A stretch of DNA of 49,804 nucleotides, taken from positions 1 through 49,804 of the forward strand of contig NZ_RYFD01000033.1 of NCBI RefSeq assembly GCF_004138135.1, given 5' to 3'. A program made the translations under genes and the position numbers. Under the pieces are notes generated by a model. The model had not been told where the DNA came from. It worked only from the letters and a program-made list of their open reading frames with translations, and ran no database searches. Source of the DNA: Candidatus Oscillochloris fontis (GTDB lineage Bacteria > Chloroflexota > Chloroflexia > Chloroflexales > Chloroflexaceae). Of the stretch, positions 2,267-49,786 are shown piece by piece. Position 1 is the first letter of the stretch. Every line of letters starts with the position of its first letter.

Positions 2267-2368
2267 AGTCGTTTCCTCATAGGGGTGGGTAGATGGTTGT
2301 GCTTTTTCTCCTACACAAGATAATAGCATATCGCGCTGGTTAGAGCATGCCTCCGGCTGGGGTTCGCA

Positions 2369-2516
2369 GGGCATGTGCAAAGTCACCTCCGGTGGGGGTG
2401 CGGGGGCGGTTGCGCCGCCCCCGCAGAATTTTTTTGTGGTGTTTTGGCGGCGAAGCCGCCAAAACACCACAAAAAATGAGGCTTGGGGTTCAGCCCCAAG
2501 GACTTTGCCCATGCCC
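2369..2516. repeat. Family B cloverleaf-like hairpin element, copy 1
   Basis: Nested inverted repeats. An outer stem pairs GGGCATGTGCAAAGTC (2369-2384) with GACTTTGCCCATGCCC (2501-2516). Inside are three hairpins: GGGGGCGG/CCGCCCCC near 2402-2422, a 22-bp stem with GAA loop at 2430-2476, and CTTGGGG/CCCCAAG near 2481-2500. The middle stem has the family core TTTTGGCGGC-gaa-GCCGCCAAAA preceded by a copy-specific arm containing GTGGTG with matching CACCAC. Confidence 0.85.
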
Positions 2517-2520
2517 TGCT

Positions 2521-2647
2521 GGGGTTCGGAGGAGGCGAAGCCTCCCCCGAAGAGCTTTTTTCTCTGATTTTGGCGGCGAAGCCGCCAAAATCAGAGAAAA
2601 AAGAGGGTTTGGGGCGCTGCCCCAAGAACTTTGGGTATAATGGGCAT
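2521..2647. repeat. Family B hairpin element, copy 2 (tandem with copy 1)
   Basis: Follows copy 1 directly. Hairpin I is GGAGGC-gaa-GCCTCC. Hairpin II is a perfect 23-bp stem (2555-2577 with 2581-2603) with GAA loop, the same core as copy 1 but a different arm (CTCTGA paired with TCAGAG). Hairpin III is TTGGGGC-gct-GCCCCAA. It ends at the putative promoter of the next gene. Confidence 0.85.
2634..2641 (+). promoter_or_regulatory. Candidate extended -10 promoter (GGTATAAT)
   Basis: TATAAT at 2636-2641 is preceded by GGG, 37 bp before the YcxB-like start codon. No good -35 lies 16-18 bp upstream, because that stretch is repeat DNA. The same GGTATAAT string precedes dnaX (13111) and the small gene at 43918. 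Confidence 0.4.
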
Positions 2648-2677: not shown

Positions 2678-3142
2678 ATGATCGTTATCGAGGCGCACCT
2701 GCAACCGGGCCATTTTTTTCGTGTCTCGCTCCTGCGTCATATCCAGCGCACCAGTTTCTACTTCTATGCACTTACTGCTGCCGGCTTGAGCGCCCTAGCC
2801 TATACGATGACAGTCAGTTATTTGGTGTTGCTGGTAGCCTGGATTCCCTTCGTCATCTACTTGGTTTTGGGCCTCGTGAATGCCATTGTTGGGAGTCGGC
2901 GCGCCGATCAGCCCTACTTTCTGCCCACGCGCTATGAGTTTGGCGACCATGCGCTCAAGTTGCGCACCATCCAAGGGGCGAGTGAGGTGGCATGGGACGA
3001 TTTTCGTGAGTGGCGCAAGGTGGTGGGCTGTTATGTCCTCTATTTGAATGCCGGAGCGGTGATCGCTATTCCATTGGAGGATGTGACTAAGGGGCGCGAA
3101 TCGGCAATTGAGGGTTTTTTGAAACAAAAAATTCCGGTGTAG
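2678..3142 (+). CDS. YcxB-like small membrane protein
   Basis: A 154-aa protein with two adjacent hydrophobic segments at about residues 26-70 (FYFYALTAAGLSALAY, then SYLVLLVAWIPFVIYLVLGL). A soluble C-terminal part follows with the pattern YEFGDHALKLRT..G.SEVAWDDFREWRKV, which fits the YcxB-like C-terminal domain. The family's function is unknown. The start at 2678 has GAGGAG ten bases upstream. The stop TAG (3140-3142) is the first triplet of the tandem family D repeat, so the C-terminus ends exactly where the repeat begins. Family assignment rests on pattern memory only. Confidence 0.75.
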   Translation: MIVIEAHLQPGHFFRVSLLRHIQRTSFYFYALTAAGLSALAYTMTVSYLVLLVAWIPFVIYLVLGLVNAIVGSRRADQPYFLPTRYEFGDHALKLRTIQGASEVAWDDFREWRKVVGCYVLYLNAGAVIAIPLEDVTKGRESAIEGFLKQKIPV

Positions 3143-3249
3143 AGACGCAAGATATGGCGTAGTAGAGACGCAAGATATTGCGTAGAGACGCAAGATATGG
3201 CGTAGAGACGCAAGATATGGCGTAGTAGAGACGCAATATCTTGCGTCTC
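3140..3249. repeat. Family D tandem array of TAGAGACGCAAGATAT units
   Basis: Five units begin with TAGAGACGCAA at 3140, 3163, 3183, 3203 and 3226, separated by 20 or 23 bp. The last forms a hairpin, GAGACGCAA-tatc-TTGCGTCTC (3228-3249). A single copy of that hairpin follows cysK at 46256. A 20-bp period places TAG in all three frames. Confidence 0.9.
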
Positions 3250-3271
3250 CACACCATATTGCATGGCGACG

Positions 3272-7930: not shown

Positions 7931-8087
7931 GCCATGTCAATGTGATTGGGGCTGCGCCCCAATCCCCATGGTTGGGATTATGTGGCGGCTTCGCCGCCCC
8001 TGAAGATCGTTGTTTAATATCTTTTGGCGACGAAGCCGCCAAAAGATATTAAACATGAAGGTTTGGGGCGTAGCCCTGTTGGCATGG
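7931..8087. repeat. Family B hairpin element, copy 3
   Basis: Contains GATTGGGGC-tgc-GCCCCAATC (7944-7964), AATCCC..GGGATT, GGCGGC-ttc-GCCGCC (7984-7998), and the variable hairpin II at 8012-8054 (19 of 20 pairs, loop GAA). The copy-specific arm contains TTTAATATC paired with GATATTAAA. GGGGC-gta-GCCC follows. Weak outer pairing is CCATG/CATGG. It fills most of the 357-bp gap between pspC and the TPR gene. Confidence 0.8.
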
Positions 8088-11706: not shown

Positions 11707-11750
11707 ATGGGGATTATAGCATAACGAACTTTGTGGGTATGAAGATGTAG

Positions 11751-12110
11751 GGGCGAAGCATCGCCTGCGGGTGCATCACGGAGGTGGGGGTTCATGGGGG
11801 CGAAGTGCCCGCCGGGGTGGGGCGGGATACCCGGTGGCATCCCGCGTGATGCCCGTAGGGGCGAAGCATCGCCCCCACCGACAACGGACGATCCTCCCAG
11901 GGGGCGCTGGGGCGATGCTTCGCCCCCATGAACCCGCCGGGGCGAAGCATCGCCTGCGGGTTCATGGGGCGAAGTGCCCGCCGGGGCGGGGCGGGATACC
12001 CGGTGGCATCCCGCGTGATGCCCGTAGGGGCGAAGCATCGCCCCCACCGACAACAGACGATCCTCCCAGAGGGCGCTGGGGCGATGCTTCGCCCCCATGA
12101 ACCCGCCGGG
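11751..12110. repeat. Family C repeat cluster with a near-identical 170-bp tandem duplication
   Basis: Dense copies of GGGGCGAAGCATCGCC and its complement GGCGATGCTTCGCCCC. Two long units starting TTCATGGGG at 11791 and 11961 are about 148 bp each, 170 bp apart, and differ at only about four positions. Each contains GGATACCCGGTGGCATCC and a large hairpin between GGGGCGAAGCATCGCC and GGCGATGCTTCGCCCC. Open frames crossing it have repetitive, Arg- and Pro-rich products and are not genes. Confidence 0.9.
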
Positions 12111-12174
12111 GCGGGGCGTGAGATGTTGCATGTGCGCGATTTGGTGGCATACCCTGAGGTTGCGGTTTTCTCTC

Positions 12175-16309: not shown

Positions 16310-16314
16310 CATCC

Positions 16315-16387
16315 CGTAAGGGCGAAGCATCGCCCGCCATGGATCAGGGGAACCCGAACGAGGTTGGCGGGCGATGCTTCGCCCCTA
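16315..16387. repeat. Family C hairpin element, orientation 1
   Basis: GGCGAAGCATCGCCCGCC (from 16321) and GGCGGGCGATGCTTCGCC (from 16367) enclose a loop of about 27 bases containing AGGGG-ACCCGAAC-AGGTT. The same loop, inverted, is in the copy at 18871. The right end supplies the stop TAG of the DUF3037 gene (complement of 16385-16387). Confidence 0.85.
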
Positions 16388-16768
16388 CGGCGTAATACTG
16401 GTAGCCAGCCGCTCCAGTGCAACACCAGGGTCATCACAGAGGCCGACATGCACTTCCGAGGGTTGGATGACGGCGCTGCGGGGGGCACTCAGCCAGCGGA
16501 AGCGTTCGTGAGCGGGGAGTTCGCCAATTGGGCCTGCTGCTCGCCCTCCGGCGCAGATGATCGGGATGTGTTCGAGCTGCGTGTGCAGGGTTTCGAGATC
16601 CAGATTGGGCGCCAGTGCCGCTAGTCGGGTCGGCTCGAAGATGAGACGGGAAGCCAAAAAGCGGCGCTCGCGGCAGAAGAGCACCACCCCAACATTGATG
16701 AACTCATCGCGCTCGACGCGGGGGACGGCGCGGATGAGGGTGTACTCATAGGCGCTGCGTGCGAGCAT
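16385..16768 (-). CDS. DUF3037 family protein
   Basis: A 127-aa cytoplasmic protein beginning MLARSAYEYTLIRAVPRVER and continuing DEFINVGVVLFC, a pattern I associate with DUF3037. The function is unknown. The start at 16768 has GAGGAGG eight bases upstream and overlaps the HipA-like gene by 23 bp, so the two are translationally coupled. The stop TAG is the terminal triplet of a family C repeat. Homologues are often next to HipA-like kinases, so it may be a partner, regulator or substrate; that is inference. Confidence 0.75.
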   Translation of the reverse strand: MLARSAYEYTLIRAVPRVERDEFINVGVVLFCRERRFLASRLIFEPTRLAALAPNLDLETLHTQLEHIPIICAGGRAAGPIGELPAHERFRWLSAPRSAVIQPSEVHVGLCDDPGVALERLATSITP

Positions 16769-17649: not shown

Positions 17650-18873
17650 ATGTCTGAAATCATCCTGATCAATATCACCGGCAAAGACCGCCCTGGGCTG
17701 CTGACGCGCATCACCGGCGTACTGGCCGAGCACGATCTGAATGTCCTCGACATCGGGCAGGCGGTCATCCATGATTATATCTCGCTGGGCTTGTTGGTGG
17801 AGATCCCGGCCCCCCAACATGTCTCTTCCATGATCAAGGATCTCCTCTTTACCGGCCATGAGATGGGGATTGAGGTGCGTTTTCGCCCCACGACCCTCGA
17901 AGACTACGAGGCGTGGGTGCATGAACAGGGCAAGTCGCGCCATGTGATCACGCTCTTGGGGCGCAACCTGAGCGCGGCCCAGATCTCGCGGGTGGCGGCG
18001 GTCTGTGCTGCCAACCACCTGAATATTGATGTGATCACCCGCTTAACCGGACGCTCCTCGCTCCGCAACCCGGTGCGGCTACCCAAAGCCTGTGTGCAGA
18101 TGACGGTCAGTGGACATCTCGCCGATGAAGCCGCCATGCGTCGCCAGTTATTGCCGCTCTCGCTGGAAATCGGGGTGGACATCTCCTTCCACGCCGATGA
18201 CATCTACCGCCGCAATCGGCGCCTGGTGGTCTTCGATATGGACTCGACCTTGATCCAGGCCGAGGTGATTGACGAGTTGGCCAAGGAGGCCGGGGTTGGC
18301 GCGGAGGTCGCGGCGATCACGTCGGCGGCGATGCGCGGCGAACTCGATTTTTGCCAGAGCCTCACCCGGCGGGTCGCGCTGCTGGCCGGGTTGCCCGCAA
18401 CGACTCTGGAGACAGTGGCGGCGCGCCTGCGCCTAACCGACGGGGCCGAACTGGTGGCCAGTACGCTCAAGCGGCTGGGCTATAAGATCGGGATTATCTC
18501 TGGTGGCTTCGACTATTTCGGGCGGCGTTTGCAGCAACAACTTGGCTTTGATTACATGCACGCCAATCAGTTGGAGATCATTGATGGGCAACTGACCGGG
18601 CGGGTGCTGGGGGAGATTATTGATGGGCCGCGCAAGGCGGCGCTGCTGCGCGAGATTGCCGCCGCCGAGGGCTTGCACCTTGAGCAGACGATTGCGGTTG
18701 GCGATGGGGCCAATGATCTGCCGATGCTCAGTATTGCGGGTTTGGGCGTGGCCTTTCATGCCAAACCTGTGGTGCGCCAACAGGCCAGCAGCGCCATCTC
18801 TGACATGGGCCTCGATGGCTTACTCTTTCTGATCGGTATTCGTGAGCGCGAATGGGTGTATCCGGAAGGGTAG
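17650..18873 (+). CDS. serB: Phosphoserine phosphatase with tandem ACT domains
   Basis: A 407-aa enzyme for the last step of serine synthesis. Two N-terminal ACT domains (about 5-80, opening ILINITGKDRPGLLTRITGVL, and 98-175) suggest amino-acid feedback. The HAD domain starts at VVFDMDSTL with D196 and D198. Motif II is IISGGFDYF, the lysine motif is GPRKAALL, and motif IV is VGDGANDLPML. The ATG at 17650 has AGGAACGAG upstream, and TATACT (17597-17602) may be its -10. It diverges from the HipA-like gene. Its stop TAG (18871-18873) is the first triplet of a family C hairpin element. Confidence 0.95.
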   Translation: MSEIILINITGKDRPGLLTRITGVLAEHDLNVLDIGQAVIHDYISLGLLVEIPAPQHVSSMIKDLLFTGHEMGIEVRFRPTTLEDYEAWVHEQGKSRHVITLLGRNLSAAQISRVAAVCAANHLNIDVITRLTGRSSLRNPVRLPKACVQMTVSGHLADEAAMRRQLLPLSLEIGVDISFHADDIYRRNRRLVVFDMDSTLIQAEVIDELAKEAGVGAEVAAITSAAMRGELDFCQSLTRRVALLAGLPATTLETVAARLRLTDGAELVASTLKRLGYKIGIISGGFDYFGRRLQQQLGFDYMHANQLEIIDGQLTGRVLGEIIDGPRKAALLREIAAAEGLHLEQTIAVGDGANDLPMLSIAGLGVAFHAKPVVRQQASSAISDMGLDGLLFLIGIREREWVYPEG

Positions 18874-18941
18874 GGGCGAAGCATCGCTCGCCAACCTTGT
18901 TCGGGTGCCCCTACCACATGGCGGGCGATGCTTCGCCCCTA
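18871..18941. repeat. Family C hairpin element, orientation 2
   Basis: TAGGGGCGAAGCATCGCTCG (18871 on) pairs with the segment ending TTCGCCCCTA at 18941, with one mismatch. The loop is the reverse complement of the 16315 copy's loop with a few changes. It starts with the serB stop codon. Confidence 0.88.
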
Positions 18942-19005
18942 CGCGGGCTTGGACAAGCCCGCGTAGGTGGGCTTTGCATTACCTAGCCGGGGGCTTCAGC
19001 CCCAC
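18941..19005. repeat. Family E hairpins
   Basis: ACGCGGGCTT-ggac-AAGCCCGCGT (18941-18964) is a perfect 10-bp stem. GGGCTTTGC..ACCTAGCC then leads to a second hairpin, GGGGCT-tc-AGCCCC. The same GGGCTTTGC..ACCTAGCC core is in the element at 25708. From here to 19129 I see no gene. Confidence 0.7.
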
Positions 19006-23936: not shown

Positions 23937-24030
23937 GTTGCAAACGCCCCAAATTCTTTTGTTGTTGTTTACAACAACAAAAATCTTCGGGGGCGGCGTA
24001 GCCGCCTCCGAACCCCCACCAGAGGTAACA
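23937..24030. repeat. Family B hairpin element, copy 4 (inverted, coreless)
   Basis: In the opposite orientation to the other copies. Hairpin II is TTTTGTTGTTG-ttta-CAACAACAAAA (23957-23982) and lacks the GGCGGC core. Hairpin I is GGGGGCGGC-gta-GCCGCCTCC (about 23989-24009). The flank AACCCCCACCAGAGGTAAC is the complement of the usual CACCTCCGGTGGGGGTT leader. Confidence 0.75.
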
Positions 24031-25615: not shown

Positions 25616-25707
25616 AGGCGTTCTCAGAATCTGCTCCGTCGTATACGCAGGTGGGGAGGAACCTACATCAGCATTAGGGCTACGTCAAAGTTGTCGGCAT
25701 ACCATCA

Positions 25708-25815
25708 CCCAGCCCGTAAACGGGCGAGCTATCACGGCGAAGGCCGCCGACGCGGCCTAAGTTTAGCCCGCGTCGGCGGGCTTTGCGAACCTAGCCCGCC
25801 CGTTTACGGGCTGGG
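25708..25815. repeat. Family E nested palindrome
   Basis: Outer arms CCCAGCCCGTAAACGGGC (25708-25725) and its exact complement (25798-25815). Inner arms AAGGCCGCCGACGCGGCCTA and TAGCCCGCGTCGGCGGGCTT differ at two symmetric sites. It shares GGGCTTTGC..ACCTAGCC with the element at 18941. It occupies the gap between the ATP-grasp gene and the tnpB element, where I see no gene. Confidence 0.8.
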
Positions 25816-25884
25816 TAAAGAACGTTGACGCGGCCCCCCCCCATCAGCATGGATTGTACCATACCGATCATAGATATATCCTGC

Positions 25885-33466: not shown

Positions 33467-33485
33467 AAAAACTCCTTGTTATTCG

Positions 33486-33627
33486 TAACTGTTCACACTT
33501 GGGGTAAATTGAAGCCTTGTGTTGACGCCAAGACGCAAAGGTTGCGATGAGCGCCTCTATGATGAAAGCTTTGCGCCTTGGCGTCTTTGCGTCAAAATCG
33601 GGATGCTCGGAGAACGGTGAACAGTTA
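33486..33627. repeat. Family A palindromic element, copy 2
   Basis: 142 bp with TAACTGTTCACACTT at 33486 and GAACGGTGAACAGTTA ending at 33627. The interior has the same GACGC-AAAG inverted blocks as copy 1. The final TTA is the complement of the hisG stop codon TAA. It separates purM and hisG. Confidence 0.88.
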
Positions 33628-35474: not shown

Positions 35475-35583
35475 GTTTGATGCAGGCGTTGGCTTCGACA
35501 AGCTCAGCCAACCTCAACTCTAGTGGACAACGCGCAAATAGCCTCGTTTGATGCAGGCGTTGGCTTCGACAAGCTCAGCCAAC
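35475..35583. repeat. Direct repeats containing TTGGCTTCGACAAGC
   Basis: Two identical 38-bp copies at 35475-35512 and 35546-35583, 71 bp apart. Each contains the imperfect hairpin TTGGCTt-cgacaagc-tcAGCCAA. A fainter third trace (GCGTTGGCTTTGCC) follows. They fill the space between the creatininase and HisRS-like genes. Confidence 0.85.
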
Positions 35584-44292: not shown

Positions 44293-44366
44293 TACCCCCA
44301 GCGGGATTCGAACCCGCGATCTTCACCTTGAAAGGGTGACGTCCTAGGCCGCTAGACTATGGGGGC
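44293..44366 (-). tRNA. tRNA-Glu (anticodon UUC)
   Basis: The minus strand gives a 74-nt cloverleaf. The acceptor stem pairs GCCCCCA with TGGGGGT. The D arm is GTCTAGCGGCCTAGGAC, the anticodon stem-loop is TCACC-CTTTCAA-GGTGA with anticodon TTC, and the T arm is GCGGGTTCGAATCCCGC. The 3' CCA is not encoded. It closely follows bacterial tRNA-Glu. Confidence 0.96.
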
Positions 44367-44422
44367 GCAACGTGGGATATTATAGCAGGGGTTGCGATTC
44401 CTATCAAGTTGGCGATTCGCCG

Positions 44423-44547
44423 AAATTGTTCACACTTGGGGTAAAAGAAACCTCGTTTTGACGCAAAGGCGCGAAGACGCAAAGGGTTGTTGCAGGCTTT
44501 GCGCCTTTGCGTCAAAATCGGAATGCTAGGAGAACTGTGAACAGTTA
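44423..44547. repeat. Family A palindromic element, copy 3
   Basis: 125 bp with AATTGTTCACACTT near 44424 and GAACTGTGAACAGTTA ending at 44547. The interior is shorter than in copies 1 and 2 but has the same GACGCAAAGGCGC blocks. The final TTA is the complement of the stop codon TAA of the 44545 gene. Confidence 0.88.
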
Positions 44548-47360: not shown

Positions 47361-47370
47361 TTTATCCTCT

Positions 47371-47485
47371 CACCTCCGGTGGGGGTTCGGGGGCGGCGCA
47401 GCCGCCCCTGAAGATATTTTTTTGGTGTGTTTTGGCGGCGTAGCCGCCAAAACACACCAAAAATGGGGTTTGGGGCGTAGCCCGT
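47371..47485. repeat. Family B hairpin element, copy 5
   Basis: CACCTCCGGTGGGGGTTCGG leads into hairpin I GGGGCGGC-gca-GCCGCCCC (47390-47408). The 21-bp variable hairpin II (47419-47439 with 47443-47463, loop GTA; arm GGTGTG paired with CACACC) and GGGGC-gta-GCCC follow. It runs into the palindrome at 47476. Confidence 0.88.
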
Positions 47486-49495: not shown

Positions 49496-49639
49496 GCTGG
49501 CCTCCTTTGTGGCGACGTTGCCAAGCCAGTTGTACACCCCGGAAAAGGTCATTATATCTGGCTGGGAGCGCGGTTGTCTAGCTTCATACTCCAGCTCTCC
49601 AGCTTTCAGGGTATGTGCAACATCACTTCCGGTGGGGGT

Positions 49640-49786
49640 TATGGAGGGCGATGCTTCGCCCCTACGACGGGCGGGGTGGGGGTTCATGGAGGGCTTCGAG
49701 GGCGAAGCATCGCCTGTGGGCGACCCACCGAGGTGGGGGTTTATGGCGGGCGATGCTTCGCCCCTACGACGGGCGGGGTGGGAGGC
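49640..49786. repeat. Family C repeat cluster at the window end
   Basis: GGGCGATGCTTCGCCCCTAC occurs at about 49657 and 49749, with GGGCGAAGCATCGCC between them at about 49700. CGACGGGCGGGGTGGG follows both outer copies. It fills the space upstream of the transporter gene. No other gene is seen after 49495. Confidence 0.85.

Follow-up and report, generated by a model that had tools for sequence, protein, structure and literature searches.

Variable but paired arms and two-way loops in the hairpins of an ISAs1-type MITE of Candidatus Oscillochloris fontis: a case for fold-back copying

MITEs and template switching are each already known. Dispersed structured repeats such as bcr1 occur in bacteria, and small inversions of chloroplast genomes are associated with hairpins. 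The element described here is closest to the insertion sequences and MITEs of the ISAs1 family, with which it shares its ends (18 of 18 bases identical to those of L155, an element of a related genome), its 10-bp target duplications and the lack of room for a transposase gene. It differs from ISAs1 systems in that no partner transposase was found in the draft genome and in its internal hairpins, one of which evolves as an exact palindrome.

Template switching has been proposed for the hairpins of RNA genes; the accessible part of that work calls compensatory change plus loop inversion extremely rare, treats a role in stem maintenance as less clear and derives a GC/TA bias of the 5' arm for template switching within one strand (PMC8794818). 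Coordinated changes of both arms, loop inversion and a G-C/T-A bias of the 5' arm are found here as well, but, as far as that partial text allows the comparison, the present family differs: about 100 copies carry two hairpins whose loops are commonly found either way round, and the central hairpin, P3, is almost fully paired. Imperfect inverted repeats have also been described to gain arm identity, attributed to template switching, although the available extract of that study concerns mutations of quasi-palindromes in yeast and not a dispersed natural family (PMC3820800). Long perfect inverted repeats are preserved beside another constraint in nematomorph mitochondrial genes, that is, according to the section at hand, in coding mitochondrial DNA and not in a mobile element (PMC6649704). 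Chloroplast inversions concern organelle loci, and no rapidly changing paired arms are noted in the accessible portion of PMC6824564. REP elements are likewise dispersed palindromic or structured bacterial repeats, but the excerpt available presents them as palindromes of 20-40 bp (PMC3733652), whereas the element described here ends in inverted repeats and is flanked by target duplications; for the REP-type transposase Y1_Tnp, the genome holds a single weak partial match at C6:31561. Within the openly licensed PubMed Central literature, as far as titles and the openings of abstracts tell, we found no description of such an element.

The window, that is, the whole stretch of DNA that was analyzed (49,804 nucleotides, contig NZ_RYFD01000033.1), belongs to a 4.46-Mb draft genome assembled in 139 contigs, in which the core palindrome of the repeat, TTTTGGCGGC-NNN-GCCGCCAAAA, occurs 110 times and its reversed control not once. 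Loci were fetched for cores with a GNA loop or its reverse complement (106 in all) and for copies detected by BLAST or by the terminal repeat, some of them being chosen among the matches listed for core and terminal repeat and not from full lists. Searching these loci with a profile yielded 136 non-overlapping matches, sister-subfamily and hybrid elements included, in which hairpins P3, P2 and P4 were located in 128, 105 and 110 cases, respectively. Distances and tree rest on 79 copies (above 100 bits, three hairpins located), of which the 51 matching end to end were used for the pair counts. Most loci were fetched for an exact 10-bp core and a GNA loop, which biases the sample towards well-preserved copies, but no selection was applied to the outer arms.

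The element measures about 152 bp and carries at its ends 18-bp terminal inverted repeats, YAGGGCATGNGCAAAGTC and its inverse. Among 61 end-to-end pairings (40-400 bp considered), 47 measure 150-154 bp, which leaves no space for a transposase gene, and 36 show 10-bp target duplications, 26 exact and 10 with one mismatch; the scan covered lengths from 4 to 13, and every accepted duplication was of 10 bp. Deletions with junctions at hairpin loops account for the shorter forms of 73-76, 83 and 111 bp. Exact target duplications flank the short forms L091, L099, L100, L101 and L102, the first four being P3-less derivatives of 73-76 bp at different sites.

In L155, CAGGGCATGTGCAAAGTC flanks an ISAs1 transposase gene on both sides. 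Matching ends were found at four of the 10 PF13808 loci examined in related genomes (identical in L155, close in L154, L156 and L159), the remaining loci having another end sequence or none recognized, and the proteins of L155 and L159 reach 210 and 203 bits against NF033564 (cutoff 70). Exact 10-bp duplications flank the PF13808 elements L151, L153 and L157; no target duplication was seen at the L154 and L155 elements. The repeat is accordingly a MITE of ISAs1 type. Searches of its own draft genome with PF13808 and with the transposase protein gave 0 matches in the 139 contigs, and a partner transposon was found neither at the PF01609 loci of this genome nor in 20 regions around further terminal-repeat matches, among the matches listed. 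The MITE is possibly orphaned, i.e., without a partner transposon in its own genome.

Two elements of 196 bp (L104, 484-679; L105, 497-692) have the same 18-bp ends around a different interior made of one long imperfect hairpin, and therefore more than one cargo has been mobilized by these ends. In addition, a 76-bp derivative (L091, 431-506) is apparently inserted in the P3 arm of another element.

A single strand of the element is predicted to fold into a cloverleaf with an outer stem, formed by the terminal repeats, and hairpins P1 to P4, P1 appearing in the RNA prediction only; for the complete copy of the window (copy 1) the folding z-score is -12.8 as DNA and -12.6 as RNA. A cloverleaf with an outer stem had been proposed by the initial annotation and is confirmed by fold and covariation, the outer stem being the terminal inverted repeat of the transposon. 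The check suggested there, an alignment of genomic copies scored for covariation of the central stem, gave a clear outcome in the 51 aligned copies: each of five measures lies above all 500 shuffles and six slid controls, with 96.8% of cells paired vs. 92.9% in shuffles and 19 pairs changed on both sides vs. 8.9, the slid controls being far below. At gathering thresholds, Rfam gives no curated family at the repeats and, in the window, only a tRNA (44293-44366).

Repeats were indeed present at all five places previously listed (2369, 2521, 7931, 23937 and 47371; Table 1). The span 2369-2647 appears from its sequence to be a nested pair: copy 1, which in fact covers 2367-2518 and has a target duplication, would sit inside copy 2, because the duplication CTGGGGTTCG reads as part of the latter. 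No 18-bp ends were seen for copy 2 (2521-2633). The core had been assigned to four of the five copies; copy 4 has lost it, and in copy 3 an A·C mismatch interrupts it (TTTTGGCGAC/GCCGCCAAAA). That the repeat is a transposon, that one copy is nested in another and that loops are inverted had all been overlooked.

Table 1. Copies of the element and their parts in the window.
Feature	Coordinates	Strand	Basis or remark
Left 10-bp target duplication, CTGGGGTTCG	2357..2366	.	Exact match to 2519-2528; reads as left part of copy 2
Copy 1, complete 152-bp MITE	2367..2518	+	End-to-end pairing, exact 10-bp duplication; BLAST match across whole consensus
Copy 1, left terminal inverted repeat (5' side of outer stem P0)	2367..2384	+	End pairing, fold; 18-bp end of L155 (ISAs1) identical
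Copy 1, hairpin P1 (short)	2385..2393	+	RNA fold only, absent from DNA fold; pair counts
Copy 1, hairpin P2, loop TGC at 2411-2413	2399..2425	+	Fold, pair counts, loop tally
Copy 1, hairpin P3, 21-bp stem, GTGGTG-type arm and TTTTGGCGGC core, loop GAA at 2452-2454	2431..2475	+	Sequence, fold, pair counts
Copy 1, hairpin P4	2483..2499	+	Fold, pair counts
Copy 1, right terminal inverted repeat (3' side of P0)	2501..2518	+	End pairing, fold
Right 10-bp target duplication of copy 1	2519..2528	.	Exact match to 2357-2366
Copy 2, sister subfamily, CTCTGA-type arms	2521..2633	+	P3 perfect; apparently split by copy 1
Copy 3, diverged	7956..8081 (model match; near 7931)	+	P3 arm TTTAATATC/GATATTAAA perfect
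Copy 4, P3 core lost	23937..24030	-	Arms TTTTGTTGTTG/CAACAACAAAA enclosing a 4-nt loop
Copy 5, GGTGTG arms, loop GTA	47370..47484	+	Model positions 17 to 132 only, ends not covered
Left end and P1 of copy-1 type fused to unrelated repeat-rich interior	49607..49639	+	Repeat family D20

The outer arm of P3 is among the most variable parts of the element in the 51 end-to-end copies, four of its positions having a minority pair in 9 to 22 copies, and yet 560 of the 561 cells in its outer 11 pairs are Watson-Crick, with one mismatch and no G·T. In the same copies, pairs other than Watson-Crick amount to 108/918 (11.8%) in the terminal repeats, 47/612 (7.7%) in P2 and 26/357 (7.3%) in P4, with 16 G·T pairs in P2 and 14 in P4. 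The P3 helix contains 66 cells with both sides changed, one with a single side changed and five unpaired. The two variable 8-bp arms complement each other exactly in 114/128 copies, while shuffling of the arms gives a mean of 11.2 and a maximum of 23 (2000 shuffles). Complementarity of differing arms, first noticed in the window, thus holds both there (CTCTGA-type arms and TTTAATATC/GATATTAAA are perfect) and genome-wide, and the independent decay of arms that would have refuted it is largely absent here: asymmetry is confined to 14/128 rows, most of them P2/P3 hybrids or edge-truncated stems, and these include hybrids found twice (L086, L090 and L102, two rows each) that were kept in the 128.

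One locus, L074 (696-935), is a partial tandem duplication with a hybrid P3 that joins a GGTATG-type left arm to a GGTGTT-type right arm and whose loop is reversed with respect to the neighboring unit.

Forty distinct symmetric arm types were recorded for P3, 28 of them seen once and 18 one pair away from a commoner type; T-A to G-C is the most frequent of the inferred single-pair changes (8/18). The 5' arm is G/T-rich, GC or TA pairs summing to 915 over positions 11-18 vs. 73 CG or AT pairs. When the 51 copies are compared with their nearest neighbors, 331 of 5408 sites differ outside P3, and the 1071 pairs within P3 include 49 with both partners changed and 12 with a single one.

Pairing in P3 extends to incomplete copies. 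In 27 exact-core copies with one recognizable end (one of them, L076, truncated by a contig end), the P3 arm has 214/216 Watson-Crick pairs, P2 246/288 and P4 145/168; in 31 exact-core copies with neither end recognized, which partly belong to other families, P3 has 242/248. We rely on the 27 one-ended copies because the broader set of 58 copies with an exact core that do not match end to end (P3, 456/464 pairs; P2, 466/564; P4, 245/294) mixes truncated copies with sister families that possibly have other ends. A further 26 rows have a located P3 and a core that is not exact: 12 of these show 18/18 pairs (e.g., GGCGGC changed to GGCCGC, both arms), seven are P2/P3 or similar hybrids and seven have one to three imperfect pairs. 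The main selection bias is lessened by these rows, since they were not picked for an exact core.

With regard to loops, 106 of the 110 exact cores have GNA or its reverse complement TNC. The P2 loops (n = 105) comprise 29 GNA, 62 TNC and 14 others, with no TNA or GNC, and the P3 loops (n = 128) 71 GNA, 54 TNC and three others, a count biased by fetching on GNA. A change from GNA to TNC by point mutation would go via TNA or GNC. In P4, with its 7-bp stem (n = 110), loops are mostly of one orientation and intermediates are present (70 GNA, 10 TNC, 10 TNA, 1 GNC and 19 others). Although the middle base varies fast, no P2 or P3 loop of this genome was GGA or TCC. Even near-identical copies may differ in this respect: L092 and L008 have 2 differences over 142 sites, yet their P2 loops are GCA and TGC.

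In a tree that leaves out P3 and the loops, orientation changes are as many as with shuffled labels (P2, 20 vs. 20.7; P3, 26 vs. 25.3), i.e., there is no signal. Signal is present for the P3 arms (22 vs. 32.2 shuffled), the middle base of the P2 loop (22 vs. 33.2) and two of four control sites. P2 and P3 orientation are not alone in lacking tree signal: it is also absent from the other two controls (terminal-repeat T/G, 20 vs. 19.1; right linker, 6 vs. 5.8) and from P4 orientation (8 vs. 7.8); the middle bases of the P3 and P4 loops have none either. The orientations of P2 and P3 are weakly associated (p = 0.04). Loop orientation showed no relation to local GC skew, and replication strand was rejected as its cause. 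As assembled, P2 and P3 loops occur in both orientations; these are draft assemblies and long reads are needed, but the arm result is unaffected.

Seventeen of the 41 genomes in the family carry the core; G002 has 62 copies and G052, which belongs to another genus, 139. The architecture in G052 is the same with different sequences, and 26 of the 35 distinct P3 examined there (of 139) are symmetric, in 14 arm types; symmetric P3 number 13/17 in G002, and across eight related genomes 33 of 43 evaluable ones. Our genome is the most symmetric of the three with more than 10 copies examined (114/128), and relatives show more one-sided changes, so maintenance of P3 is not absolute. In element orientation, P3 loops in G002 (n = 18) are 11 GAA, six TTC and one TCC, and in G052 (n = 35) 14 GAA, 14 TTC, five others and two not orientable. 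P2 loops are nearly one-directional in G002 (AAA 6, AAC 3, TTT 1; n = 10), and in G052 eight of 19 are GAA and six TTC. The fourth P2 pair is mainly C-G in our genome, T-A in G002 and A-T in G052. In G018, the same P3 core lies in three elements (L175, L176 and L177) with other ends, GTAACCGTTCAGG...CCTGAACGGTTAC, and the hairpin is therefore not bound to one transposon type. Orthologous copies were sought in relatives: L122 and L052 share an intergenic region, where L122 has its own 10-bp duplication (one mismatch), but a shared insertion was not demonstrated for them, nor for L119 and L028.

Fold-back copying in place, a form of template switching that perfects the P3 arms and flips the loop, is in our opinion the best explanation of these findings; it is inferred, with a probability of roughly 0.6. 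The hairpin would fold back during replication or repair, and the polymerase would switch template so that one arm is copied from the other. Copying within the strand would match both arms in one event, and if the opposite strand served as template, or the folded palindrome were reversed, the loop would be reverse-complemented too. A long perfect stem could thereby stay perfect while its sequence drifts, without selection on each copy. The elements themselves would have been moved in trans by an ISAs1-family transposase, as we infer, and whole P3 hairpins would probably be exchanged between dispersed copies, which would spread arm types.

Fold-back copying forecasts joint arm changes, Watson-Crick pairs only, reversed loops, a GC/TA bias and action in immobile copies, and each of these is observed, with limits. 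That both arms change together and pair only as Watson-Crick is met in P3; that the loop is reversed without intermediates is met in P2 and P3, in draft assemblies, whereas P4 has intermediates (10 TNA/110). The initial annotation had left selection on structure and the copying of one arm onto the other as possible causes. The evidence favors copying, because the variable arm has no G·T, one-ended copies remain paired, loops are reversed and P3-less derivatives have target duplications. On the other side, with one genome per species compared, no before-and-after pair was seen at one locus and no insertion is proven to be shared with relatives, so that an event at one locus is not demonstrated. 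Moreover, P2 loops occur both ways round as freely as those of P3 while the outer stem of P2 is imperfect; flipping and arm repair are therefore not tightly coupled. In G002, P2 flips little. The larger share of asymmetric stems in relatives and the two tree controls without signal also weigh against fold-back copying.

Among the alternatives, ectopic exchange fares best, although as the main cause we consider it rather unlikely. Here P3 would be a palindromic cassette swapped by recombination in either orientation, by which loops flip and arms change jointly. This agrees with similar backgrounds whose arms differ at two or three pairs at once (the multi-pair jumps of L063/L007 and L029/L008 resemble cassette exchange and speak against fold-back copying), with GTGGTG arms on more than one background, with the GGCGGC-NNN-GCCGCC shared by P2 and P3 and with 111-bp hybrids joined at loops. 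Nevertheless, exchange creates no new arms, and 40 symmetric types are found, 28 as singletons and 18 one pair from a commoner type; breakpoints inside P3 should also give many hybrid stems, whereas one clear arm-type hybrid was seen (L074_848), P2/P3 deletion hybrids being left out of this count. Exchange of whole hairpins between copies probably contributes and explains the multi-pair jumps.

It is less plausible that the loop reversals come from assembly, a palindrome longer than the k-mer letting the assembler join the loop either way. The assembly is indeed in 139 contigs, and reversal, as such an artifact would predict, is frequent in P2 (27 nt) and P3 (45 nt) but infrequent in P4 (10 TNC vs. 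70 GNA; pairwise comparison of copies agrees). However, the P2 palindrome is short and its orientations stand at 62:29, which is not even, the separate assemblies of other genomes (also drafts) show both orientations, and arm symmetry cannot be accounted for by such an artifact.

Selection on an RNA from the element (regulator, stabilizer or terminator), with compensation in two steps, would be consistent with the strong covariation, the stable RNA fold and the differing stem sequences of like architecture in other genomes. On the sequence evidence alone we regard it as very improbable: G-T is absent from 561 P3 arm cells, although these copies have 16 such pairs in P2 and 14 in P4, the commonest inferred single-pair change, T-A to G-C, has no wobble intermediate, about 100 dispersed copies, truncated ones included, would each need selecting, and no Rfam family lies at these places. 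Selection at transposition, under which only elements with a perfect P3 move and all copies start perfect and are young, has in its favor the recent activity seen in exact duplications and near-identical copies, but is hardly tenable given that P3-less derivatives of 73-76 bp have exact duplications at different sites, that end mismatches and differences outside P3 are common in the same copies and that copies with one recognizable end still keep P3.

If fold-back copying does act here, the repeats could form a natural family of self-perfecting palindromes, in which such copying outpaces point mutation and covariation over about 100 copies arises without selection on RNA or movement; we give this broader proposal even odds. 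Paired changes in a stem are commonly read as proof of a functional RNA, and the covariation of this MITE appears to come from the mutation process instead. If this is true, caution is due before covariation in intergenic repeats is taken for RNA function. The 110 cores of this genome, together with 62 and 139 in two relatives, would allow the maintenance of stems by template switching to be tested in nature.

Other repeats were observed in the window. At positions 3113-3260, GTAGAGACGCAAGATATGGC-type units form an imperfect tandem array that has an inverted partner, and three copies of another repeat (4-139, 33484-33627 and 44421-44547), with ends resembling AACTGTTCAC...GTGAACAGTT inverted repeats, are possibly a second MITE. 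A GGGCGAAGCATCGCCC hairpin family occurs in both orientations (11744-12113, 16313-16398, 18870-18957 and 49634-49782) and includes a 148-bp direct pair, 98% identical, within 11797-12113. Finally, a long inverted repeat lies at 25707-25816 (arms of 54 nt, 83% complementary, spaced by 2 nt), and an exact 38-bp direct repeat, with starts 71 bp apart, at 35475-35583.
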